DNA of 37,400 nt from Terriglobia bacterium (GTDB taxonomy: Bacteria > Acidobacteriota > Terriglobia > Terriglobales > Acidobacteriaceae). Of the stretch, positions 21,116-37,400 are shown piece after piece (the stretch's first letter is position 1; each line of letters begins with the position of its first letter). Location: NCBI GenBank assembly GCA_021324365.1, contig JAJPJE010000013.1, forward strand, positions 1 to 37,400. The letters are read 5' to 3'. A model generated the notes under the pieces. The model worked only from the letters and a program-made list of their open reading frames with translations, ran no database searches and had not been told where the DNA came from. Made by a program: the position numbers and the translations under genes.

Positions 21116-22186
21116 CTACTTGGTAAGGCCGTTATCCTTAAGAATCTGTTCGGCGAAGTAGTTCTCGACCTTGGCCTGATCGCGAATTACGTCGTAATAC
21201 GCCGATTTCAGCAACTGTTCGCGGCGATCGCGGAGCTGATCCCGGATTGCCTGCTGCACGCGGGGGTCATTCAACTCGCGCTGACCCGCGGGCTCTTTGG
21301 CGACCAGCTTCACGATGCGATAGCCCATGAACTGCTTGTTCTGAGGATTCTGAATCTGGATCACGCTGCTGTACTGGCCGGGCTTTAGCTTCATGACGGC
21401 ATCACGGGTCGCCGGATCGGTGCGCTGCAGTCCCGATTCAGGTGTGAAGCCAAGGTCACCGCCATTCTGTGCGCTCTCCGGGTCTTCGGAATACTTCATG
21501 GCGATGCTGGCGAAGTCCTCACCGCTGTCAAGACGGTTGAGGATCATCTGTATCTTCTTCTTCGCGTCCGTGTCGTTCTGCGCCTTGTCGTTGACGCGCG
21601 CCTGCGGATTCGGAACCGGCGTGACGACAATCTGTGCCAGATGATACTGCGGCTCGATCAGGTTGAACTCGGGCTTGTGGGCGTTGTAATACGACGTGAT
21701 GTCAGCGTCGGTGACGTTGATCTTTGACGTAATCTCCTTATTAATGACCTTATCGACCGTGATCGAGCGGCGAAGGTCGCGCTTGAAGTCGTCGAGCGAG
21801 ATGTTGCGCTCTTTCAGCCGCTGGTCAAACTGCTCGGGGGTGTAGGGCGCTTTGATCTCATTCAATTTCTGATTGACTTCGTCATCAGTTGCGAGCAGCC
21901 CAAGCTTCTGCGCGCGCTGCATGAGGATTTCGTTGTCGATGAGCTCGCGCAGAATGTTCAGCTTAAGGCTGACCGCCTGCTCTCCGGCAACCGGCTGTGG
22001 AGACTGAGCGGTTTGATTGCGGAAATACTTATCGACTTCACTGGCCAGGATCTTCTTGCCGTTGACCTTGGCCATGACGTCGGCGCCACCCTGCCCACTC
22101 TGGCAGGCGACCAGCGCGGCTATCAGGAGAACACAAAAAGCAGCAGCAAACGTATGAAAACGAACGTAACGTTGATTCAAGCTCAA
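21116..22186 (-). CDS. Lipoprotein parvulin-type peptidyl-prolyl isomerase / chaperone (SurA/PrsA-like)
   Basis: A 356-residue envelope chaperone. The signal ends in lipobox LVAC with C28 as the lipidated residue. A SurA_N-like helical domain follows (KILASEVDKYFRNQ; LKLNILRELIDNEILMQRAQKLGLLATDDEVNQKLNEIK), then a parvulin domain from about residue 178 (QYHLAQIVVTPVPNP; DFASIAMKYSEDPESAQNGGDLGFTPESGL; VMKLKPGQYSSVIQI) and a C-terminal helix. It should assist folding of exported proteins. It lies 53 nt downstream of a DsbA-like gene in the same orientation, so the two probably form an envelope protein-folding operon. Confidence 0.92.
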   Translation of the reverse strand: MSLNQRYVRFHTFAAAFCVLLIAALVACQSGQGGADVMAKVNGKKILASEVDKYFRNQTAQSPQPVAGEQAVSLKLNILRELIDNEILMQRAQKLGLLATDDEVNQKLNEIKAPYTPEQFDQRLKERNISLDDFKRDLRRSITVDKVINKEITSKINVTDADITSYYNAHKPEFNLIEPQYHLAQIVVTPVPNPQARVNDKAQNDTDAKKKIQMILNRLDSGEDFASIAMKYSEDPESAQNGGDLGFTPESGLQRTDPATRDAVMKLKPGQYSSVIQIQNPQNKQFMGYRIVKLVAKEPAGQRELNDPRVQQAIRDQLRDRREQLLKSAYYDVIRDQAKVENYFAEQILKDNGLTK

Positions 22187-22239
22187 TTTTCCTCCCGCGC
22201 CGGGGAGCTAATCACGGCGCGAAGTCCGGGATTTACTGA

Positions 22240-23154
22240 TTAATGCGAAGTTGCGGCCGCAGTCGTGACTCCGGCATCGCGTAACGCATTGTCGATGGCG
22301 GCATGCAGCTCTTCGGCTGGTATAGCGCCATCGATTTTGTAGCCATTGATAAAGAGCGTCGGTGTTGCACTGACGCCCAACTTGTCGGCTTCTTCCATGG
22401 AAGCCTGAACCTGTTTGTCCGACTGCGCCTTGATACAAGCCTGAATGGTGTCGGCGGGAATCTTTGCCTTTTGCGCCTGGTCCAGAGCGATGCGATCAAT
22501 GTTATTTTCCTGCTCCAGCAGCGATTTCGCCTGGTGGGCGATTTGCTGCTGGTTATCGTGCATGTAGTCGGCGAAGTCCCAATAGGCCTGGCCGCTCTGT
22601 GCGGCAAGACAGTTCGCATCGATGGCGGCGTGCTTGGCCCAGGGATGAATCTCGGTCAATGGATAGTCCTTGTAGATAATGCGAACGCGGTCGCCATAGT
22701 TCTTGAGGATGTCGTTCGTAAGTGTCTCGTGCATGCGCGCACAGAACGGGCATTCGAAATCGTCGTAGTTGACGATGGTGACCTTGGCATTTTCATTGCC
22801 GCGTACCGGCCGCCCGGCGAGATCAATCTTCTTCATCGTGGAGGCATAGGGATCCTGTGTCAGGTCGAAGCGGGTCACCCGCAGCAACGTCTTGTTGTCT
22901 TTCGAAATCAGGAACTTCTGGTCCTGCTTCTTCTGGCCGTTATCGAAGGTAACGACGAGGTTGTCGTACCCAGAGAAGTCACTGGGAGTGCGCGCACCAA
23001 CGAACAGTTTCACGTCGGCGGGAACGCTGTAATAAGAACGCAGATTGCGTTCGATGTTGCGGTTCAGATCAGGCGAAGGAGCCTGGGCGGCGCAGCCAAA
23101 AGACAATAAGAAGAGCAGGGCGCAAGAGCGCCGAATCCATGTTGAAATCAGCAT
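22240..23154 (-). CDS. DsbA-family thiol:disulfide oxidoreductase (thioredoxin fold)
   Basis: A 304-residue exported protein: signal sequence (RRSCALLFLLSFGCAAQA, possibly a lipoprotein), an N-terminal domain of about 85 residues with beta-rich sequence (PADVKLFVGARTPSDFSGYDNLVVTF), then a DsbA/DsbG-like thioredoxin domain with active site C135-P-F-C138 in NYDDFECPFCARMH, IIYKDYPLTEIHPWAKHAA, and the cis-proline block GVSATPTLFINGYKIDG. It should oxidise or isomerise disulfides in the periplasm. The parvulin gene follows downstream. The N-terminal add-on is common in acidobacterial homologues. Confidence 0.92.
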   Translation of the reverse strand: MLISTWIRRSCALLFLLSFGCAAQAPSPDLNRNIERNLRSYYSVPADVKLFVGARTPSDFSGYDNLVVTFDNGQKKQDQKFLISKDNKTLLRVTRFDLTQDPYASTMKKIDLAGRPVRGNENAKVTIVNYDDFECPFCARMHETLTNDILKNYGDRVRIIYKDYPLTEIHPWAKHAAIDANCLAAQSGQAYWDFADYMHDNQQQIAHQAKSLLEQENNIDRIALDQAQKAKIPADTIQACIKAQSDKQVQASMEEADKLGVSATPTLFINGYKIDGAIPAEELHAAIDNALRDAGVTTAAATSH

Positions 23155-28622: not shown

Positions 28623-30011
28623 CTATGTTGAGGCGGCGGTGGTTGCGAGCGCCTTCTTTTCAGTCTCGGCCTGACGCGCTTCCTTGCCGGCCTCTTGTGT
28701 CTGGTCCCGCATACCGAAGCCGACGCCGATCTTCTTCAAGAAGTCGAATGGCGGCGTACCTCCGGCGAAGATCCAGACAAAGTCGTTGGGGATCTCCTGC
28801 TGCTGACCCTTCACGTCGATGATGACGGATTCAGCTTTGAATTCCACAGGGTTCGAGTTGAAGAGCACCTGGATTTTTCCGGAACGAATGCAGTCTTCGA
28901 TGCGTTTCTCGTTGCGATCCTTGATACGGCTAAAACGCTCCTGACGATAAGACATGGTCACTTTGTTGCCGTGCTGATTGGCGAGGCCCATTGCAGCTTC
29001 GACGGCGCTGTCGCCGCCGCCGACTACCAGTATCTTCTTATTGACGTAATGATCAGCCTCGATCAGGCGATACATTACTTTGGGCAACTCCTCGCCTTTG
29101 ACTCCAAGCTTGCGGGGAGTACCGGTGCGGCCCAAGGCTAATATGACGGTGCGGCTGCGGTACTGCTGGCTTGGAGTGGTTATGGTGAAAATGCCATCGG
29201 GCCCGCGCTTGATATCGTCTACTTTTTCTCCGGTGCGAACGTTGAAGTCGACACGATTCAGAACGACATCCCAGAACGCAAGGAGATTCTCTTTCGAAAG
29301 TTCCGTGCGTTTAAACTTTCCGTACATAGGGAATTCGACCGGGCTGGTCATCACCAGTTTTTGGCGTGGGTATTTCGCGACCGTGCCGCCAATCTCATCT
29401 TGCTCCACGGTGATGTAGTTCAGCTTGTTCTCGATCGCCCGCAGAGAAGCACTGATTCCGGCCGGGCCTGCGCCTACGATCAGAACATCGTGAACGTCAG
29501 ACGATGGCTCGGTGATTCCCGCGGAGATCAAGCGGCCGGTGATGGTGTCGATACACTCTCGTCCCTGGTTAACCGCGTTCTTGATCAGCGCCAGGCCGCC
29601 CAGTTCTCCCACGATAAAGAGGTTGGGGATCGTGGTTTCGTGTTGCGGTGAGATAGTTGGGAGATCGGCTCCCATGCCCGGCGTGGCCATCACCCTGGTG
29701 ATGGCGCCGACGGGGCAGGCTTCCGCACACAGGCTATGGCCAATGCACTTGTAGCCGTTCACGATAGCCGCTTTGCCTCCGACCATGGCGAGCACATCTC
29801 CCTCGGGACATACGGAGGTGCAGGTTCCACAGCCGATGCACTGCGCCGTGTCGATATGCGGATGTTGCGCGCGTGGTCCCTCGGAAAAGACTTTGCCCTT
29901 TTCGGCCGCCTGACGGGCCCTGTCTTCCTTTTCTTTCTGGCTTTTCAGGTATCCGCGGAGGAAGAACAGGGTAATGCCGCCAACAATAAACAACGTAATC
30001 AAGGTATCCAA
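28623..30011 (-). CDS. Membrane-anchored ferredoxin / FAD / NAD(P) oxidoreductase
   Basis: A 462-residue fusion. Residues 5-20 form a membrane anchor. C58, C61, C64 and C68 form a complete 4Fe-4S motif; the second motif is C89-x2-H92-x2-C95-x3-C99, with histidine replacing one cysteine. Residues 124-160 (TTIPNLFIVGELGG, KNAVNQGRECIDTI) resemble the FAD segment that ends thioredoxin-reductase-like folds, but here it precedes the first Rossmann motif VGAGPAGISAS (about 179). A second dinucleotide site is VVGGGDSAVEAAMG (about 329). It should pass electrons between NAD(P)H or ferredoxin and the membrane. The start is TTG at 30011 with GAGGT upstream. It is the last gene of the cytochrome operon, 8 nt after the b-type cytochrome. 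Confidence 0.88.
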   Translation of the reverse strand: MDTLITLFIVGGITLFFLRGYLKSQKEKEDRARQAAEKGKVFSEGPRAQHPHIDTAQCIGCGTCTSVCPEGDVLAMVGGKAAIVNGYKCIGHSLCAEACPVGAITRVMATPGMGADLPTISPQHETTIPNLFIVGELGGLALIKNAVNQGRECIDTITGRLISAGITEPSSDVHDVLIVGAGPAGISASLRAIENKLNYITVEQDEIGGTVAKYPRQKLVMTSPVEFPMYGKFKRTELSKENLLAFWDVVLNRVDFNVRTGEKVDDIKRGPDGIFTITTPSQQYRSRTVILALGRTGTPRKLGVKGEELPKVMYRLIEADHYVNKKILVVGGGDSAVEAAMGLANQHGNKVTMSYRQERFSRIKDRNEKRIEDCIRSGKIQVLFNSNPVEFKAESVIIDVKGQQQEIPNDFVWIFAGGTPPFDFLKKIGVGFGMRDQTQEAGKEARQAETEKKALATTAAST

Positions 30012-30019
30012 TTAAGACC

Positions 30020-30961
30020 TCACATGAATCCGAGCATCATGACGACCACGATATGCACGATAGCAAGCACAGCGAACGAGTAGCTGAACGGTTTGTGCAC
30101 TACATGCCAGAGATGAAAGACCTGTTGCGAGCGTGACAGGAAGACCAGTCGCTTGGAGAGTGAGGCTCGCTCTCGAGCGAGCGCAATCACCTGCTCGAGA
30201 CGCACATTCTTCGAGGGCAGGAGTCCGCCCAAGCTGGTGATAACCTGCCCGCCGCTCATGGTCCGGCATCGCAGGCGCGCGACATGGAATGGCCTGGCGA
30301 TATCGAGAATTACCATGTAGATCAGCGCAAAGACTGTTGGCCAGGCGGTGACGTCCTCTTCTGTGGGCAACTTGAATAGAGCCTTCAGGTGGCCGGGGGA
30401 AATCACCTTTTGTTGGGCTAGTTGCTCAGTCATTTGCGTCTGAGCTTCGCGCGCTTCTTTGAGGGAGATTTCCGTGGCAGAAACGCCGCGGTGGATCTGG
30501 GCATAGAGATAGCGGCCGACGATGCCGCTGAGAGAGACGGAAAGCATGATCCAGAACGCCATGCCGGCCAGTCCACGAAATTTAAATGACGAGTGCAGCG
30601 CAATGATGAAGGGCGCCGAGATTCCAAGCACGATGTGATAGTCGAGCCAGTGGCGCGCTGTTCCCCATTGTTGTAACCACGTTATTTTCTTACGCAGCGG
30701 ATACAAGAAGATCAGGCAAAACATGCCGAACCCGAGCATGCCGAGCTTGATACCGATGGATCCGGAGGGCTTCAGCACTTCATGTTTCGCGGAAAATGGC
30801 CGTTGCGCAGAGTCGAGCGTGTAGTAGTCGAAGCCGTAGATCGTAACTGCTGCGATGAGTGCGAACACCACAAGATAAGCTAAGACAACGAACAGGCGAT
30901 GACGTTTCTCCTTGTTCAGCCCTGCCATCGAGGGCGTTGCAACTGCAGTATGCGCCGTCAT
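30020..30961 (-). CDS. Di-haem b-type membrane cytochrome (ferric-reductase-like)
   Basis: A 313-residue inner-membrane protein with about six transmembrane helices (23-43, 70-90, 105-125, 130-152, 207-225, 292-312). Two helices carry paired histidines 14 residues apart, H109/H123 in WLDYHIVLGISAPFIIALH and H289/H303 in the last helix. This is the geometry of bis-His haem b pairs in ferric reductases and cytochrome b561-like proteins. A charged helical loop (160-205) lies between. It is not a close match to cytochrome bc or NrfD that I can see. Its ATG overlaps the upstream stop codon (ATGA). It would link the Fe-S/FAD protein to periplasmic haems. Confidence 0.75.
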   Translation of the reverse strand: MTAHTAVATPSMAGLNKEKRHRLFVVLAYLVVFALIAAVTIYGFDYYTLDSAQRPFSAKHEVLKPSGSIGIKLGMLGFGMFCLIFLYPLRKKITWLQQWGTARHWLDYHIVLGISAPFIIALHSSFKFRGLAGMAFWIMLSVSLSGIVGRYLYAQIHRGVSATEISLKEAREAQTQMTEQLAQQKVISPGHLKALFKLPTEEDVTAWPTVFALIYMVILDIARPFHVARLRCRTMSGGQVITSLGGLLPSKNVRLEQVIALARERASLSKRLVFLSRSQQVFHLWHVVHKPFSYSFAVLAIVHIVVVMMLGFM

Positions 30962-31758
30962 TGGGTTTTCACCGACTCCTGTGTGCTTACGTTGAACTGC
31001 TGATACTTGGTGAAGTGATGGATGTTGCGCCAGTGCTGCCGCGGGGTTTCAACTTCGATTTCTGCGTCAGTAGGAAACCAGTAGACCTGCGGATCGCCAT
31101 TGAACTTTACTGGGCTGTAGTGGACGTCCGTATTCAACGTACGCAGTCCGAGATCTGTCATCGGTTCTGCAAGCGTAGCGACAATGCGGTGAATCACGCC
31201 GGTGTCAGGCTCCACCCAGGCGGTGCCCATCAATTGCAGAGGGAATTCTCTGCCGCGCAGCAGCAGCGCGGTCGGAGACTTCCCTTCCTTCACTGCTTCA
31301 AAATTGATCCTCATGAGCAGCTTTGCGTCCATCAGTTCGGTGCCGCCATTGGTGAAGGTGAAACTATTTTGGTAGGAAGGATGAAAAATGAGCTCGAGGA
31401 TTGCGAACCCGTTGGTCACCAGCAGCGAAGCGCTCTTCTTGTGTTCCGCCGTGTTCACGGCAAGGCGAGATTCCTGCAAATCCAGATCGTCCGCGGTGTT
31501 CTGCGCGATCAGCAGGTAGTCGAATGTGGAGGTTTCCTTGTACTCGACTTTGCCGTGCTTGGTCAGGCGTAACTGCTGAACGTTTTCTGTGCACTTCACG
31601 TCCGAAAACTGGTCGAGGAACGTTGCTACGTGTTTGCGCGTGTGCGCAAGCGCGGCACTCAGATCATCGGCAGCAAACGCGCTCGCAGACAGCAATGCAA
31701 TCAGGCAAACCGACAGTACTGTCCGTTTACCGCGTAGCTGATGGAGGAACGTTTTCAT
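30958..31758 (-). CDS. Exported protein of unknown function in the cytochrome operon
   Basis: A 266-residue protein with a clear signal peptide (KRTVLSVCLIALLSASAFAAD) and an alpha/beta body: helix SAALAHTRKHVATFLDQFSDVKC, then many short strands (VEYKETSTFDYLLIAQ, FAILELIFHPSYQNSFTF, GTAWVEPDTGVIHRIVATL, VYWFPTDAEIEVETPRQHW). The pattern recalls the lipoprotein-sorting fold but is too weak to assign. It has no haem motif. It overlaps both neighbours by 4 nt (ATGA), so it is made in step with the porin and the b-type cytochrome, which argues for a structural or assembly role. Confidence 0.75.
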   Translation of the reverse strand: MKTFLHQLRGKRTVLSVCLIALLSASAFAADDLSAALAHTRKHVATFLDQFSDVKCTENVQQLRLTKHGKVEYKETSTFDYLLIAQNTADDLDLQESRLAVNTAEHKKSASLLVTNGFAILELIFHPSYQNSFTFTNGGTELMDAKLLMRINFEAVKEGKSPTALLLRGREFPLQLMGTAWVEPDTGVIHRIVATLAEPMTDLGLRTLNTDVHYSPVKFNGDPQVYWFPTDAEIEVETPRQHWRNIHHFTKYQQFNVSTQESVKTQ

Positions 31759-33602
31759 TTTCTGCCACTCGCGTGATTATCGAATCGATATCCCATGGTG
31801 ACGAACCACTGGTCGTAATCCAGTGAGCCGCCGCGCTGTACCGTATAACCGCCTTCGAGGAAATAATGACGGCCCACGTTGGCGTCCACCATGCCGTTGA
31901 TGAACTTCGAGCTGTCGTTCGAGGTGAAGGTGGAGACCAGGGACTGATCCCCGAACTGAACTTGTCCCATGAAGCGCTCGCCGAGATTTCGCGACACCGT
32001 CAACGAACGATAAGTTCCCTTTCCGAATGAGCCGTCAAACTTCGAGTAGCGCGCATCGAGGCGAAATGCGGTATGGAGAACGGAATTCCACGTCGCGCCA
32101 TACAGCTGATTCCAGGAATTCGTTGTGTCGCCCGATTCGTGGCTGCGTCCGATGGTGGTATAGACAACCACGTTGTGCAGAACTTCCGCTCGCACGCTGC
32201 CGCTCAGTCCCTGGAACAACAGGGTATCCACCAGGCCGGTTGCAATCAGTCGCGGGTCGAAGGTCAGTGCATCGCGGAAGTAGTTGTAGTTGGCATCGAA
32301 AGAAAGGCGCCGGTGCGGCTGAAAGCGGACGGTAACAATCGCGCGTCCCAGTCCTGGCCCCGGCATGAATCCAGGAGTCGAGTAGCCTTGCGGATCATCC
32401 GCTTGCATGGCGTTGTAAATGGAAATGTAGCGTTTGTAAAAGATACCGTTTTCGATGAAGACGAAGGGCCGATCGAGTTTCCACTGCATCGTGGTTAAGG
32501 CAGCGCCCACGGTGGAGGTAAAACGGACAGAATCGTAGCTGCCAGTCTCATATGCGAGGAAGGTGCCACCCTCGCGGCGATCGGGGCTGTAATTCCAGGA
32601 TGTGGGATCCGGCGCGGAGCCGGCAAAGATTCCACTGGTGAATCCATGTCCGAGCCGACGCGCGAGATAACCGCCGTCGATCGTGTCCAGGCTACCTGCC
32701 CAAGGCAGATAGAAGCGGCCGATGCCTGCAACCCAGTTGTTGTTCGGGCTCGCGTAATTGAGTGTCAGCGTATAGGTGCGGTTGATCAGGTCCTGAAGCG
32801 TCTGTTGACCGGCCGCAGAACTGGAGGTAAAGCGGCCTCGCCAGTAGCCGTTGAGGTTCCAATAAGTTCCCCCAATGCGGGTGAAATCCATGCGAGCCAC
32901 GCCGCCGATCTGGCTGTAGCTGCTGCTGGTCGAACCGGTGCTGTTGATGCCGCTGTAATCGATACCGAATCTCCCGCGCATACGATCCACTTCCGGCAAC
33001 GGCGGACGTGGCACGTTATCGCGGACTTCTTCATCGAGCGGATCGCCCTCACTGAAACTGATCACCTGAGGATACTTGCGCTGCCCGCTGGTCTCACGCT
33101 TCTGCACCATCATCTCGGCGTCGGAGACGGATACGTAAGCGAGATCACCGGGCTGAATTGGCGTGTTCGAACTGTTGATCTGGCAGACGGTGGAAGCGGC
33201 GGCCACCATCTCGACTTCTACTTCCGCAACAACCAGATTTCCGGTTGCGTCGGTATTTGCGGCAGGAGTTTTGTCTTCCGTCGCAGAGAGCGGACGAGGT
33301 CGCTTGATGGTCAGGTGCATTCCGGGCGCAAGTCCCGCGGCCTTTCCACCGCTGAGGTAAATCGCATCGGCAGCGACGTACTTTACCGTGAAGACGGTCC
33401 GCATATCGAGGCCGGGGCTTCGCGTCGAAAGTTCAAGCCCTTGATTCGAAACTGGCGCATTTCCCGACTGCGCAGTTGCGTCTCGCGCAGCAGTGTCCGT
33501 CACTGCGGCATTCTGAGTAGTACTTTGCTGGGCGGCAACTACGTTTGGAGCCGACACCACGAGAAGCAAACTGAAGAGGAGGAGGTAGGAAACAGCGTGC
33601 AT
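31755..33602 (-). CDS. Outer-membrane beta-barrel (porin-like) with N-terminal SH3-like domain
   Basis: A 615-residue exported protein. After the signal peptide (AVSYLLLFSLLLVVSAPNVVAAQ) and a low-complexity stretch comes a small beta domain, about residues 68-165 (VFTVKYVAADAIYLSGGKAAGLAPGMHLTIKR, PGDLAYVSV), similar to SH3-like/FlgT-C-type folds. From about 210 to the end it shows the alternating pattern of a large barrel (RGRFGIDYSG, GGTYWNLNGYWRGRF, YTLTLNYASPNNNWVAGIGRFYLPWAG, SFDANYNYFRDALTF), ending YDQWFVTMGYRFDNHASGRK. It sits 5 nt after the 25-haem cytochrome, which suggests a porin-cytochrome pair. Confidence 0.8.
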   Translation of the reverse strand: MHAVSYLLLFSLLLVVSAPNVVAAQQSTTQNAAVTDTAARDATAQSGNAPVSNQGLELSTRSPGLDMRTVFTVKYVAADAIYLSGGKAAGLAPGMHLTIKRPRPLSATEDKTPAANTDATGNLVVAEVEVEMVAAASTVCQINSSNTPIQPGDLAYVSVSDAEMMVQKRETSGQRKYPQVISFSEGDPLDEEVRDNVPRPPLPEVDRMRGRFGIDYSGINSTGSTSSSYSQIGGVARMDFTRIGGTYWNLNGYWRGRFTSSSAAGQQTLQDLINRTYTLTLNYASPNNNWVAGIGRFYLPWAGSLDTIDGGYLARRLGHGFTSGIFAGSAPDPTSWNYSPDRREGGTFLAYETGSYDSVRFTSTVGAALTTMQWKLDRPFVFIENGIFYKRYISIYNAMQADDPQGYSTPGFMPGPGLGRAIVTVRFQPHRRLSFDANYNYFRDALTFDPRLIATGLVDTLLFQGLSGSVRAEVLHNVVVYTTIGRSHESGDTTNSWNQLYGATWNSVLHTAFRLDARYSKFDGSFGKGTYRSLTVSRNLGERFMGQVQFGDQSLVSTFTSNDSSKFINGMVDANVGRHYFLEGGYTVQRGGSLDYDQWFVTMGYRFDNHASGRK

Positions 33603-33607
33603 TGCTC

Positions 33608-35518
33608 TTACCCTGCCCTTCCATTCTTATGGCAGTTGTAGCAATTCACGCTATTCCAGACGTAACCACTGACCCCCTGATGCTGCGGATTGGTTTGAGC
33701 CTGCGTGTGACAACTGGTGCAGACGAATACGGTGTAATCAGATGAATTGGTGTGGCAGTCAGTGCAAAGCTGAGCATTGTGATGCGGAATCGGGAACCAG
33801 CTGTGATTGAAAGTCGCGCCTGTCCATGCGGTTGTCGTATGGCATGTCTGACACGTAGTCGGGAATCCGGCTGCGACGTGATTCGGATTGGTTGTGCCGG
33901 TGTAGTCGGCTTTGTGACAAGAGTAGCAATCCGTCGGAACGGTTGTGTAGTTGCCCCCAATGTGGCAACTCGCGCACGCGACGGTGGTGTGCGCACCGGT
34001 CAATGGGAACGCGGTTTTGCTGTGATCGAAAGTGGCAGGCTGCCAGGCTGTTGTGTTGTGGCAGACCTCGCACGTTGTCGGGAATCCAGAGGTCACGTGG
34101 TTAGGATTCGTGGTGCCGTTGAAATCCTTCATGTGGCACGACGAACAGGCGGTGCTCAGGCCCGCGAAAACATTGTTCACGTGGCAACTGGAACAGGCGA
34201 CCGCGGTATGGGCACCGGTCAGCGGGAACGGCGTGTTGTTGTGATTGAAGACCGCTCCAGCCCATGAAGTCGTGCTGTGACAGATGGAGCAGTCCGTCGG
34301 GAATCCTGCCGCCGAGTGATTCGGATTATTCGTGTTGTTGTAATCCGTCATGTGACAGGTCGAGCACGCGGCGGAAGTCAGGTTGTAGTTGTTGTTCACG
34401 TGACACTGCGCACAGGGCACGGCGGCATGAGCGCCGGTCAGCGGAAAGCCCGTCATGGTCGCGTGATCGAAGGTAGCCTGCAACCACGAGACGGTGTTGT
34501 GGCACTGCTGGCAGGTCTGCGGGAATCCCGAGGTCACGTGATTCGGATTCGTGGTGCCAGTGAAATCCTTCAGGTGGCATGATGAACAAGCCGTGCTGAG
34601 TCCGGCGAACACATTGTTTACGTGACAACTCGAGCACGGAACGGTGACGTGCGCTCCGGTAAGTGGGAATGGCGTCTTGGAATGATCGAAAGTTGCCGGT
34701 GTCCACGAGACGGTGTTGTGGCACTGCTGGCAAGTCTGCGAGAAACCGGCCTGTATGTGATTCGGATTTGAGGTGCTGGTGAAATCTTTCAGGTGGCACC
34801 CGATACAATTCGCGGGAGTGCCCTGGAATTTGCCGCCGATGTGGCAGGCCGTGCATTCGAGCGTCGCGTGTGCTCCGGTGAGCGCGAAGCCGGTCAATTT
34901 CAAGTGATCGAAACTGGCGCCGAACCATGTATCCATGCTGGTGTGGCATTGCGTGCAATTCGTAGGGAACGCGGCCTGCTGATGGTTCGGAGCAGTAGTA
35001 TTCAGATAATCGGTCGTATGACAACCAATGCACTGTGTGGGAAGTCCGGCAAACTGTCCGGCTGCCATGTTCTTATGACAGGCATCACAGTCGACTACCG
35101 CATGTGCGCCAATGAGCGGAAAACGGTTCTGATGCTCGTTGATCGACTTCATCGAAACCTGCCATCCATTAACGTTGTGGCACTTCTCGCAGTCGGCGCC
35201 CATTTGGCGGCGATGGATATCAGCGTGGCAATCAGCACAACGCAATCCCACGTTCGTAAACACCGGACTGGTATGGCACGACGTACACGGAACGCTCTTG
35301 TGCATTCCGCGCAGCGGATATTTCGTTTTGTTGTGATCAAATTCCGGGACATTGCGAATCGGCTTCCATCCAGAAAATGTGTGACAGTTCTGGCAGGGGA
35401 TGTTGAGAGGACCGTGCGGACTATGCGTTGAAACAGGGTTCTGCGGCTGCTGCGCGGGCGTATTCAACCACGCAATGGTGAAAATCACGAAGACTTGCAG
35501 AATCTGTTTTGCCGTCAA
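33608..35518 (-). CDS. 25-haem c-type cytochrome with tandem tri-haem modules
   Basis: A 636-residue periplasmic or surface cytochrome with a signal peptide (QILQVFVIFTIAWLNTPAQ) and 25 CxxCH motifs, one haem per 25 residues. Five near-identical modules of 73-74 residues fill positions 203-569. Each contains FDHxxTxFPLTGAH, two CxxCH, NPNHxxxGFP and a third CxxCH. Each module thus has three haem motifs and three further conserved histidines (FDH, GAH, PNH), enough for bis-His ligation of all haems. The N-terminal 200 residues hold less regular copies and the C-terminus three more haems. No membrane anchor follows the signal. The start is TTG at 35518 with a weak ribosome site. It is first in the operon. 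Confidence 0.95.
   Translation of the reverse strand: MTAKQILQVFVIFTIAWLNTPAQQPQNPVSTHSPHGPLNIPCQNCHTFSGWKPIRNVPEFDHNKTKYPLRGMHKSVPCTSCHTSPVFTNVGLRCADCHADIHRRQMGADCEKCHNVNGWQVSMKSINEHQNRFPLIGAHAVVDCDACHKNMAAGQFAGLPTQCIGCHTTDYLNTTAPNHQQAAFPTNCTQCHTSMDTWFGASFDHLKLTGFALTGAHATLECTACHIGGKFQGTPANCIGCHLKDFTSTSNPNHIQAGFSQTCQQCHNTVSWTPATFDHSKTPFPLTGAHVTVPCSSCHVNNVFAGLSTACSSCHLKDFTGTTNPNHVTSGFPQTCQQCHNTVSWLQATFDHATMTGFPLTGAHAAVPCAQCHVNNNYNLTSAACSTCHMTDYNNTNNPNHSAAGFPTDCSICHSTTSWAGAVFNHNNTPFPLTGAHTAVACSSCHVNNVFAGLSTACSSCHMKDFNGTTNPNHVTSGFPTTCEVCHNTTAWQPATFDHSKTAFPLTGAHTTVACASCHIGGNYTTVPTDCYSCHKADYTGTTNPNHVAAGFPTTCQTCHTTTAWTGATFNHSWFPIPHHNAQLCTDCHTNSSDYTVFVCTSCHTQAQTNPQHQGVSGYVWNSVNCYNCHKNGRAG
33812..34912 (-). 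repeat. Five tandem copies of a 219-222 nt coding module
   Basis: Codes for residues 203-569 of the 25-haem cytochrome. Modules two and four are the closest at protein level (CSSCHVNNVFAGLSTACSSC is shared exactly), although their DNA differs at many third positions. This points to old module duplication kept by selection rather than a fresh tandem duplication. Confidence 0.85.
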
Positions 35519-35827
35519 TCTTGCTCGTCCCTTGCGACGGACTCAACAGCTCACCAGGAATGCTCCGGAAAGAGCAATCGAACGCCCACAAACTGAGAGG
35601 AGGATACCCGAAGAAAATAGCGCAACAAAGTTACGGAATCTGCTGTACTAAAGTACGACCTGTGGTGACAGGCGAGTCGCGGGAACCCAGTATCCATGGG
35701 GGCTTCGCAAGGTAAGTTCTTCCTGCTTCGAGCAAGAATTCCTGAACATGACGGATTCATGAACTCTGCATGAAAAAGCGCGGGTGCGTGATATCGCTAC
35801 CCATGGCGGTGAAGTGCTTTGGCGCGC
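35519..35827 (-). promoter_or_regulatory. Regulatory region of the cytochrome operon
   Basis: 309 nt between two multihaem genes. It contains three direct CATGA repeats at exact 11-nt steps on the plus strand (35747, 35758, 35769; read TTTCATG, GTTCATG, CGTCATG in the direction of the operon) and a perfect palindrome GTACTTTAGTAC when read on the minus strand (35645-35656). Helically phased direct heptamers are the usual site form for OmpR/PhoB-type regulators. I found no consensus -35/-10 pair. Confidence 0.5.
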
Positions 35828-37400
35828 TCAGGCCTTCGCTCCATGACAGGCTGCGCACTCTTTCGGCGTGGGCTTATAGAACAGTACCTGCTTGTCATTC
35901 ACCGTCTTGAACAGCGTGTGGCATCGTTCGCAGCGAACGTTCCTGTGCACGCCTTCGAGCGGCAAAGCGGTGCGACTGTGATCGAACAACGACGGTTTCC
36001 ACTTATTGGTGTTATGGCAGTCAGCGCAGTGAGTTATCCCGGCTTTCGCAAACTGCCCGGCGTGCACGTCCTGATGGCAGTTTTCGCAGATCGTCGGGGC
36101 GGAACGGAAATCGACACTAGACAATTTCAAACCCAGGTTTGGAGGCTTGTGGCACTCGATGCAGTTGACAGCGCGGTGCGATCCGGTGAGCGAGAAATCG
36201 GTTTTTGAGTGGTCGAACGTCGAGATGTCTTTCCAATCTGACGTATTGTGACAGGTTTCACAGCCGGATTTCCCGGCAACTGTTCTCAGCATTCGTTCCT
36301 TGAACTGCCCATTGTGCGGATCGCGGTGACATTGTTCGCAACCGAGATCAGCGAAACGGAACTGCGGAGTTTTATATTGAGCACCTTCGGTATCACGAAC
36401 TTTGTGGCATTCGGAGCAAGTGGTAGCCAGGTGTGCGCCGGTGAGCTGGAACTTTGTCTTCTTGTGGCTCGCCAGAGTGAACGTGGAAGGCGCGTATCCC
36501 TGGACGGTGTGGCACGCTTCGCAGCGATTCAGGTAAGGCGCTGCCGCGAACTGCGATTCGTGCATGTCGTGGTGGCAATCGAGACACTGCGAAAACTTGA
36601 TCTTGAAGCGCGTGTCTTTGCCGGCGGGAATATGGCACTTTGCGCAATCGACGTCCGCATGCTTGCCCTGCAACGGATACAGGGTTGCCGCGTGGTCTTT
36701 TACAGTGAACAACGATGGCTTGAATCCATTCACGTTGTGACACGATTCGCAACGGCCGCCATCGGCACGCTTCGCGAATTGTCCGCCATGGGGATCAGGG
36801 CGGTGGCAGTCGGCACAATTGTGAAATGCCAGCGGCCTTTTGAAATCGCCGGAGGTATGGCATTTGTCGCAGGTCACTTCGAGGTGTTTTCCCAGGAGAG
36901 GATACTTCGTCCTGGAGTGGTCGAAACGGGCGCTCACGTTCGCCATCGAAACAGCTTTCCAACTGGCGGTGATATGACAAGACTGGCAGGGACTCGCGAA
37001 GCTGCCGTGATGCGGATCGGAGTGGCACGCATTGCAACGATCGAACGGCAAATCGGCGTAGCGCGGCTTTCCCTCCGCGTCATTGATGTGGCATTTCGCG
37101 CAGGCAACTTTCTCGTGCGCTCCGGTCAGCGGGTACTTCGTTTTATTGTGGTCAAATTCCGAGACAGTTTTCCAGTCGTTAAAGCCGTGACACTGTTGGC
37201 AAGCAGGACCAAGGCGCCCCTGGTGCTCGTCGCGGTGGCAGGATCCGCATTGGTGTGACAAGCCGAGATACGTGTGGTTCGCGTCTTTAACCTGAATCGT
37301 GCGGCGCTCGGCGGCGCTCACGTGTTCAGCGGTGTGGCAGCGCTTGCAATCGAGGCCTGCGTGTTTTCCCTCGAGAGGATACCCGGTCTTGCTGTGATCG
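35828..37400 (-). CDS. Multihaem c-type cytochrome, at least 20 haems (5' end outside the window)
   Basis: The visible 524 residues are the C-terminal part of a protein that continues past the right edge: the frame is open to base 37399 and still reads a haem motif (LDCKRCHTAEHV) before the first available start codon. At least 20 CxxCH motifs are seen. Repeating units have the form FDHSxTxxPLxGxHxxVxCxxCH, often with DPHxGxF between them; it is related to but more irregular than the 25-haem neighbour, with spacings of 20-45 residues. Histidines in FDH, GxH and DPH could be distal ligands. It ends in ECAACHGAKA. It lies 309 nt upstream of the cytochrome operon on the same strand. Confidence 0.93.
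   Translation of the reverse strand, partial: DHSKTGYPLEGKHAGLDCKRCHTAEHVSAAERRTIQVKDANHTYLGLSHQCGSCHRDEHQGRLGPACQQCHGFNDWKTVSEFDHNKTKYPLTGAHEKVACAKCHINDAEGKPRYADLPFDRCNACHSDPHHGSFASPCQSCHITASWKAVSMANVSARFDHSRTKYPLLGKHLEVTCDKCHTSGDFKRPLAFHNCADCHRPDPHGGQFAKRADGGRCESCHNVNGFKPSLFTVKDHAATLYPLQGKHADVDCAKCHIPAGKDTRFKIKFSQCLDCHHDMHESQFAAAPYLNRCEACHTVQGYAPSTFTLASHKKTKFQLTGAHLATTCSECHKVRDTEGAQYKTPQFRFADLGCEQCHRDPHNGQFKERMLRTVAGKSGCETCHNTSDWKDISTFDHSKTDFSLTGSHRAVNCIECHKPPNLGLKLSSVDFRSAPTICENCHQDVHAGQFAKAGITHCADCHNTNKWKPSLFDHSRTALPLEGVHRNVRCERCHTLFKTVNDKQVLFYKPTPKECAACHGAKA

Follow-up and report, generated by a model that had tools for sequence, protein, structure and literature searches.

A candidate PCC3-like electron conduit of Acidobacteriota that pairs a nearly constant cytochrome with one varying in three-haem steps

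What kind of electron carrier is encoded where two giant cytochromes, a beta-barrel and two inner-membrane redox proteins lie side by side in the genome of a Terriglobia bacterium? The window analysed here, 37,400 bp, is the whole of contig C34 (JAJPJE010000013.1) in a 4.44-Mb, 125-contig genome that is 95.4% complete. Its cassette lies entirely on the minus strand and runs, from the contig end, through cyt2 (a multihaem cytochrome gene cut by that end), cyt1 (a second multihaem cytochrome), the barrel, an exported protein, a cytochrome b and an iron–sulfur/flavin (Fe-S/FAD) protein (Table 1). We consider it probable that the cassette encodes an electron conduit across the whole cell envelope, similar to the predicted porin-cytochrome system PCC3. 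The original prediction had proposed such a trans-envelope conduit. This is still the best reading, with the gene order conserved and the barrel modelled, but the comparison had been aimed at less similar systems, MtrCAB and the Geobacter porin-cytochrome clusters.

The tight packing predicted for the five genes from cyt1 onwards was borne out in its coordinates, gaps and overlaps. The cyt1 and barrel genes are 5 nt apart and those for cytochrome b and the Fe-S/FAD protein 8 nt, while 4-nt ATGA overlaps join the barrel gene to the exported-protein gene and the latter to cytochrome b. The haem numbers also stand: cyt1 has 25 CXXCH motifs, against 0.32 expected from its own composition, and of the at least 20 predicted for the upstream cytochrome, 20 are visible. 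That cyt2 gene is incomplete because the window is the entire contig. Between it and the five-gene run lie 309 nt (window 35519–35827), room for a separate promoter, so cyt2 may have its own transcript.

A gene order shared in Acidobacteriota and on a plasmid

The predicted gene order is conserved in related Acidobacteria. Among 297 genomes sampled from the phylum, the host's own included, 58 have a relative of the cytochrome b (E ≤ 1e-3); 33 of the 58 match at E of about 1e-30 or better (manual count) and the rest are weaker. We examined the neighbourhoods of 34 of these matches and of six further stretches, five from the host's genome and one a second match in genome G121. Scanning GTDB contigs with a single pattern yielded 388 relatives; the 80 best were examined and carry the main-set counts given below. 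Titles among their records include Terriglobia, Acidobacteriaceae, Sulfotelmatobacter, Bryobacterales, Solibacter and plain Acidobacteria, and Occallatibacter savannae (L130) is the only one of the 80 not titled as a metagenome-assembled genome. Among these 80 the usual order is cyt2, cyt1, barrel, LolA-like protein, cytochrome b, Fe-S/FAD protein. It is found in its strict six-gene form on one strand in 35, many others being cut by contig ends. Where the contig leaves room, the Fe-S/FAD gene is present in 68 of 72 loci, the LolA-like gene in 76 of 79, the barrel in 64 of 66, cyt1 in 47 of 49 and cyt2 in 42 of 45.

A second set of 21 more distant loci (L042–L062) has other arrangements of the core. 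Cytochrome b is followed by Fe-S/FAD protein, cyt2, cyt1 and barrel in L043 and L047 (and in L053 up to its cut), by cyt2, cyt1, barrel and Fe-S/FAD protein in L042, L045 and L057, and by cyt2, cyt1 and barrel without an intact Fe-S/FAD gene in L048 and L054; other orders occur too. Profile comparison found no LolA-like relative in these 21 loci, and the LolA-like protein appears confined to the form of the cassette to which the window belongs.

Outside Acidobacteriota the search covered plasmid records. Protein searches gave 15 records for cytochrome b (E ≤ 0.01), one for cyt1 (E ≤ 1e-10) and two for the Fe-S/FAD protein (E ≤ 1e-30), and all three converge on a single record, plasmid pEMTOL02 of Emticicia oligotrophica DSM 17448 (Bacteroidota). 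Near ParA and replication genes, this plasmid carries in order a CcsA/ResB-type biogenesis gene, cytochrome b, Fe-S/FAD protein, cyt2, cyt1, barrel and a protein with GW domains, which are SH3-like. Identity to the window proteins is 40% for the Fe-S/FAD protein, 38% for cyt2, 40.8% for cyt1 and 29.3% for cytochrome b, and the barrel profile matches the Emticicia barrel with 97.3% probability over 488 columns. Beside the Emticicia cassette (L151:1-3826) lie genes for YceI, a DUF5777 beta-barrel, a Rieske protein and another barrel, with a sigma-70 factor on the opposite strand.

A constant cytochrome and a modular partner

The two cytochromes differ sharply in how far their haem numbers vary. 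Cyt2 has 23 haems in 37 of 42 uncut open reading frames of the main set. The exceptions are frames of 11 and 12 haems (one gene split in L084, summing to 23), 19 haems in L119 (with a 4-haem piece beside it, again summing to 23), 20 in L107 and 21 in L126. The haem spacing of the window cyt2 aligns with that of its 23-haem relatives, three haems being missing at the N terminus. Among 13 distant cyt2 sequences nine have 23 haems, three have 24 and one has 20; the Emticicia protein has 23 haem motifs. In the 37 loci where both genes are uncut, cyt2 ranges from 20 to 23 haems (standard deviation 0.58) and cyt1 from 19 to 61 (standard deviation 8.8).

Cyt1 is built from a 7-haem head (spacings of 36, 16, 16, 34, 19 and 25 residues), a number n of trihaem units (spacings of about 33, 16 and 25) and a 3-haem tail; in the window n is 5. 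This 7+3n+3 ladder was tested on 49 sequences, namely the window and the 48 of 52 relatives' rows with at least 15 CXXCH motifs. It fits 37 of them, with n from 3 to 23 and hence 19 to 79 haems, and 12 fall outside it at the tolerance used. The spacing of head, three-haem units and tail explains why the haem number of cyt1 leaves a remainder of one on division by three in 39 of 45 sequences (binomial p 2e-13), six not doing so; the same holds in 32 of 36 (p 7e-12) when only loci with cytochrome b less than 80% identical are kept. Besides its three CXXCH motifs, each trihaem unit has three more histidines, whose conservation across 279 units is 100, 100 and 87%; these would be enough for bis-histidine ligation. 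Under a looser tolerance the ladder fits 8 of 14 uncut cyt1 or fused frames of the distant set, 9 of which leave the remainder of one, and n runs from 0 in L042 to 10 in L043. The 10-haem relative in L042 (L042:4589-6703) consists of head and tail with zero middle units.

The length of cyt1 appears to turn over fast between close relatives: where cytochrome b is 85% identical or more, just one of ten pairs (the pairs overlap) shares its cyt1 haem number. Trihaem units are up to 99% identical in protein in some relatives (L134), and Tandem Repeats Finder at its default threshold found no DNA-level tandem repeats in cyt1. Metagenome or short-read assembly may have collapsed or expanded repeats and so altered single cyt1 haem counts, an artefact that would not explain the 23-haem constancy of cyt2. 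Two records of named strains are on the same ladder, the Occallatibacter savannae draft with 34 haems and the Emticicia plasmid with 40 (7+30+3). Cyt1 scores 47.1 against a cut-off of 40 on the nanowire_3heme model TIGR04257, which we take to describe GSU1996-type tandem c7 cytochromes; a sequence search of the PDB with cyt1 gave no match at E ≤ 0.001.

In five distant Acidobacteriota loci cyt2 and cyt1 are present in a single open frame, always with cyt2 first. Two of these frames are uncut (L046, 51 haems; L062, 53 haems) and three are cut by a contig end (L049, L055 and L060). Each shows a 24-haem cyt2 spacing, a step of about 33 residues and then cyt1 spacing as in the unfused L051, L056 and L058. 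The L046 fusion resolves into 24 + 27 haems, its join resting on haem spacing. Among the six best matches per sequence, a head-type profile match follows the 24 haems in four of the five fusions and a tail match is found in L062 only. These natural fusions fix the order as cyt2 then cyt1. They suggest that in unfused systems the two proteins dock end to end as one continuous wire.

The barrel, the LolA-like protein and the inner-membrane pair

The original prediction depended on the barrel being neither a soluble protein nor a non-porin fold, and it is indeed modelled as an outer-membrane-type barrel. The model has 22 strands, counted from its strand list, with mean pLDDT 80 and pTM 0.63. VIA-align matches it to outer-membrane barrels (best Z 17.9, root mean square deviation 5.0, 345 aligned); near-tied rows include both TonB-dependent receptors and OprD-type porins, so these matches do not fix the strand number. 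Foldseek places the usher FimD, MOMP and AlgE on top, at low TM-score, and no barrel model of Pfam or NCBIfam, MtrB included, matched at E ≤ 0.1. The SH3 domain once assigned to this protein fares less well. A small, well-modelled N-terminal beta domain (about residues 70–157) is present, and its likeness to SH3 is backed by a sub-threshold match to Pfam FlgT_C (E 0.0091; 16.9 bits, the cut-off being 27). The predicted exported protein is where it was expected and can now be refined to LolA-like: its model (pLDDT 88) has a LolA-type fold, the best match being a putative lipoprotein-sorting protein (Z 11.7, root mean square deviation 3.6, 180 aligned) and the top Foldseek match LolA3 (E 1.2e-6, TM-score only 0.42–0.45). 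The modelled fold does not imply a lipoprotein-carrier function. Profile searches of the PDB with this protein and with the barrel gave no match at E ≤ 1.

Cytochrome b has invariant pairs H109/H123 and H289/H303 together with tryptophan and SGXXG motifs. Both WX3HX13H motifs and SGXXG are found in 28 of 29 sequences, so the protein carries the signature that He et al. give for the inner-membrane proteins of PCC3 and PCC4. Their description equates this layout with a ferric reductase domain holding two haems b (PMC5566968). Against Pfam Ferric_reduct (PF01794) the window protein scores 16.9, below the cut-off of 28. A simple hydropathy count gives its relatives three to six transmembrane helices, most commonly five, and the window protein has six hydrophobic centres at a lower hydropathy cut-off; a PDB profile search gave no match at E ≤ 1. 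A distant relative (hhalign probability 98.6%) is encoded on a Sphingobium plasmid in a decahaem cluster with an FAD-cNMP-FeS protein. This belongs to a separate recurring set, found in L063, L064 and L153 (Sphingobium plasmid pTomTYG65a), of a cytochrome b relative, an FHA-domain decahaem protein and an LVIVD-repeat decahaem protein, with an FAD-cNMP-binding-FeS fusion (scanned in L064 and L153) and, in L064 and L153, an HbpS-like protein. Its cNMP and FHA domains suggest a regulated conduit.

The last protein had been described as a membrane-anchored ferredoxin/FAD/NAD(P) protein. Anchor and domains were found, and the ferredoxin part needs correcting to seven cysteines plus a histidine at the eighth place. 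A single N-terminal hydrophobic helix is followed by basic residues and then two ferredoxin motifs, a layout that would put the Fe-S and FAD domains on the cytoplasmic side. The second cysteine of the second motif is histidine in 63 of 63 sequences (the window, Emticicia and 61 of 66 relatives' rows, five short ones having been dropped) and in 18 of 21 of another, partly overlapping set; the Emticicia protein also has serine for the second cysteine of the first motif. A His-ligated or three-iron cluster at the histidine-containing motif is a reasonable guess. The FAD/NAD part matches YpdA/Bdr and thioredoxin reductase (TrxR)-like ferredoxin-NADP reductases (FNR). We rejected thioredoxin reductase, as the catalytic CXXC is absent from the NADPH domain and the sole CXXC run is in the Fe-S part, and also the YpdA/Bdr bacillithiol reductase (176 bits against the TIGR04018 cut-off of 339.9).

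Nearest known systems, direction of flow and meaning

The general logic of MtrCAB and the Geobacter systems holds, but the nearest published kind appears to be PCC3 (and PCC4), which has the same inner-membrane motif set; this likeness rests on gene content, motifs and haem numbers from the published description. He et al. 2017 (PMC5566968) found this predicted porin-cytochrome system, PCC3, in iron oxidisers and included quinone in their model of it; it is described further in PMC10734462, PMC12442390 and PMC8788666. As described in these sources, it shares with the cassette a single barrel, a pair of very large multihaem cytochromes (medians in print of 34 and 21 haems, up to 85), an inner-membrane protein of about 300 residues with SGXXG and two WX3HX13H motifs, and repeats in the cytochromes, one published subunit having 21, 24 or 27 haems in steps of three. 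It differs in being reported mostly in Proteobacteria and as four genes, the published set having no flavin/Fe-S or LolA-like gene. PCC4, in the account of PMC5566968, adds Fe-S and redox genes to the same motif set, but has a porin with three smaller periplasmic cytochromes and none outside the cell. We rejected PCC4 membership, the cassette having two giant cytochromes instead.

The flavin/Fe-S module, which the original prediction had set apart from known systems, is not unprecedented: besides the PCC4 genes, a 2026 ghost-rock metagenome paper (PMC13264449) mentions ferredoxin-NADP reductase genes close to porin-cytochrome clusters, though with decahaem cytochromes, and also reports porin-cytochrome clusters in Acidobacteriota and ones with cytochromes of more than 20 haems. 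Ferric reductases and NADPH oxidases (NOX; PF01794) resemble the cassette in two HX13H pairs within a membrane protein and an NAD(P)H-flavin partner. Here, however, flavin is carried by a separate TrxR-like protein that also has two Fe-S clusters, and the proposed acceptor is a multihaem chain. Tandem c7 cytochromes (GSU1996, TIGR04257) also have trihaem c7 units in tandem, whereas cyt1 has a fixed head and tail, a variable middle, a 23-haem partner, and a barrel and cytochrome b in its cluster. Further literature drawn on is PMC7399161, PMC13386937, PMC8100337, PMC12977616, PMC7096707 and PMC3669403.

The mechanism we propose builds on what the sequences give directly (haem-motif counts, modular architecture, cytochrome b motifs, Fe-S/FAD domains, gene order and the natural fusions) and on the barrel-type and LolA-like folds of the models. 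From these we infer cofactor occupancy, docking and which cytochrome is periplasmic and which reaches outside. Cytoplasmic NAD(P)H would reduce the FAD domain of the membrane-anchored protein, whose two Fe-S clusters would pass electrons to the di-haem cytochrome b; this, with its ferric-reductase/NOX layout, would carry them across the inner membrane. Cyt2, nearly always with 23 haems, would span the periplasm, and cyt1, docked end to end on cyt2 and passing through or sitting in the barrel, would take the electrons further, over a reach that depends on how many trihaem units it has. The external acceptor may be Fe(III) minerals, humics or others, and the LolA-like protein may help in the periplasm with assembly or lipid handling. 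If a haem adds about 1 nm, as in GSU1996, 23 haems suit the periplasm, whereas 79 (about 80 nm) could scarcely fit across it, and the variable part is hence more easily placed outside. We favour outward flow from NAD(P)H, which is a low-potential donor, since the flavin module has no energy-coupling partner encoded alongside it. The full picture, of a constant 23-haem periplasm ruler and an evolvable trihaem extension that tunes reach outside the cell, driven by NAD(P)H through the flavin/Fe-S protein and a NOX-like cytochrome b and by-passing the quinone pool, is possible and we hold it tentatively.

Could the cassette instead be a canonical MtrCAB or Geobacter-type conduit with unusual haem numbers? 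It shares with MtrCAB and, by description, OmbB-OmaB-OmcB the passage from inner membrane to outside through multihaem proteins and a barrel, and its similarity to MtrC/MtrF domain II/IV (44.6 and 37.4 bits) is over the Pfam cut-off of 30. We nevertheless rejected MtrCAB membership, and the canonical reading is very improbable: the weak similarity to MtrA/DmsE (TIGR03508) amounts to 37.9 and 40.5 bits, far under the cut-off of 192.2, which puts cyt1 and cyt2 outside that family, and the barrel has no MtrB match in Pfam at the threshold above. The same genome holds a separate cluster (L067; contig C84, about 103.5–109.2 kb) with a true DmsE-family decahaem protein (277.7 bits against the same cut-off), an 813-residue porin-like protein of weak GSU2204-family similarity and an 11-haem protein with a fused cytochrome b561-type domain. 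This appears to be a GSU2203/2204-like porin-cytochrome cluster, and its porin-like protein is not matched by the barrel profile (hhalign probability 0.2%). The cassette is thus additional to a more conventional cluster.

The same conduit might also run inward, taking up electrons from Fe(II) or other organisms, with cytochrome b exchanging with quinone and the flavin protein as a side branch. PCC3 in iron oxidisers, modelled with quinone, would fit this, as would Acidobacteriota versions with no adjacent flavin gene; yet where there is room an NAD(P)-FAD-FeS gene accompanies cytochrome b in nearly all main-set loci (counts above) and in Emticicia, and the cassette appears to encode no energy-coupling subunit that could drive the reduction of NAD(P)+ by a high-potential donor. 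We regard inward flow as unlikely. Somewhat less likely again is a role as electron store or reductant sink, in which the haem arrays act as a capacitor in the periplasm or at the surface, or pass electrons to oxygen or to an unlinked reductase. The very high haem numbers and the cultured hosts, which are probable aerobes, would suit it, and published accounts propose that such proteins serve as capacitors. A purely periplasmic store, however, needs no barrel, which is near-constant in the main set and present in Emticicia and several distant loci.

Several observations weigh against an outward PCC3-like conduit. Occallatibacter savannae and Emticicia oligotrophica are aerobic heterotrophs and not known metal reducers. 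Lipobox-like motifs are present in 5 of 52 cyt1 and 1 of 42 cyt2 N termini, so few that surface anchoring is unexplained. Four of the 72 main-set loci with room (L135, L144, L147 and L148) have no flavin gene; it lies on the opposite strand to cytochrome b in six (L084, L096, L102, L115, L125 and L128) and, though found in 11 of the 21 distant loci, is absent or a fragment in the available stretch of the other 10, some of them end-cut. Several more distant loci thus have no intact copy, and the flavin module is not obligatory; relatives with no such gene adjacent imply that electrons can enter the core another way, possibly from quinol. In L125 and L128 the inverted gene lies more than 3 kb from cytochrome b, and so it can be an independent transcript. 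The published accounts, as far as drawn on here, call PCC3 functionally unverified and report both PCC3 clusters of Sideroxydans ES-1 as down-regulated on Fe(II), the latter also counting against inward flow. In them the subunit with 21, 24 or 27 haems is the proposed periplasmic one, whereas the three-step protein of the cassette is the highly variable cyt1; the proposed extracellular subunits have 10–18 or 26–35 haems, elsewhere up to 85, with no clear steps of three. It makes a straightforward match of cyt1 to the extracellular subunit less likely.

Table 1. Features of the cassette in the 37,400-bp window
Feature	Position	Strand
cyt2, multihaem cytochrome: C-terminal 523 residues, 20 of inferred 23 haems, 5' end beyond contig	35828..37399	-
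cyt1, 25-haem modular cytochrome: TTG start, signal-peptide-like N terminus	33608..35518	-
cyt1 fixed head, haems 1-7, spacings 36, 16, 16, 34, 19, 25	34943..35395	-
cyt1 variable middle: 5 trihaem units, each of 70-74 residues	33767..34855	-
cyt1 trihaem units	33767-33976, 33977-34195, 34196-34414, 34415-34636, 34637-34855	-
cyt1 fixed tail, last three haems	33611..33766	-
Beta-barrel protein, outer-membrane type, 615 aa	31755..33602	-
Barrel protein, small N-terminal beta domain, residues 70-157, possibly SH3-like	33132..33395	-
Barrel part, residues 207-608, 22 strands in model	31779..32984	-
Exported LolA-like protein, 266 aa	30958..31758	-
Cytochrome b, 313 aa, two His pairs: W105xxxH109x13H123, S145GxxG149, W285xxxH289x13H303	30020..30961	-
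Membrane-anchored 2[Fe-S]/FAD/NAD(P) oxidoreductase, 462 aa	28623..30011	-
Ferredoxin-like part, residues 50-105: C58 C61 C64 C68 + C89 H92 C95 C99	29697..29864	-
TrxR/FNR-like FAD + NAD(P) domains, residues 174-438, GAGPAG at 180, no CXXC pair	28698..29492	-

Beyond the Fe-S/FAD gene lie biotin carboxylase-like and BCCP-like genes, identified by eye from their translations and having no obvious link to the cassette. About 5.5 kb from the cassette, at window 21116–23154, are genes for a SurA-like peptidyl-prolyl isomerase (PPIase) and a DsbA/thioredoxin-like protein, which act in folding of exported proteins. Elsewhere in the genome (L065 and L066, contigs C31 and C124), 16-haem and 4-haem proteins are encoded near a SurA/PPIase gene, and an 11-haem protein adjoins an NHL-repeat protein, a pair reminiscent of the Uet set of Tenderiales as its composition is given in the literature.

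New here are the conserved order, the core in distant Acidobacteriota and on the Emticicia plasmid, the 23-haem partner, the three-haem ladder, the fusions, the flavin/2[Fe-S] protein with its conserved histidine beside cytochrome b in most lineages, and the LolA-like fold. The most unusual of these, namely the near-constant partner, the ladder, the fusions and the plasmid copy in another phylum, were not part of the original prediction. Our search of the open-access literature found no description of the cassette in Acidobacteriota or Emticicia, a negative that does not prove absence; the ghost-rock paper does report porin-cytochrome clusters in Acidobacteriota. For Burkholderiales, Chloroflexi and Gallionellaceae, giant cytochromes with differing haem numbers have already been published; evidence from a constant partner and from fusions was not found in the parts of the literature examined.

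PCC3-type systems have been predicted for many bacteria, and the cassette offers a clean version in two phyla with an obvious candidate entry point for electrons, and copies exist in cultured strains, one of them on a plasmid. It amounts to a natural experiment on wire length, in which 19 to 79 haems are set against a nearly constant partner, near-identical hosts such as L107 and L112 differ and fusions fix the order of the cytochromes. Extracellular electron transfer would extend to common soil Acidobacteriota, which are usually regarded as aerobic heterotrophs, and the question of what sets the length of a cytochrome wire becomes directly testable.

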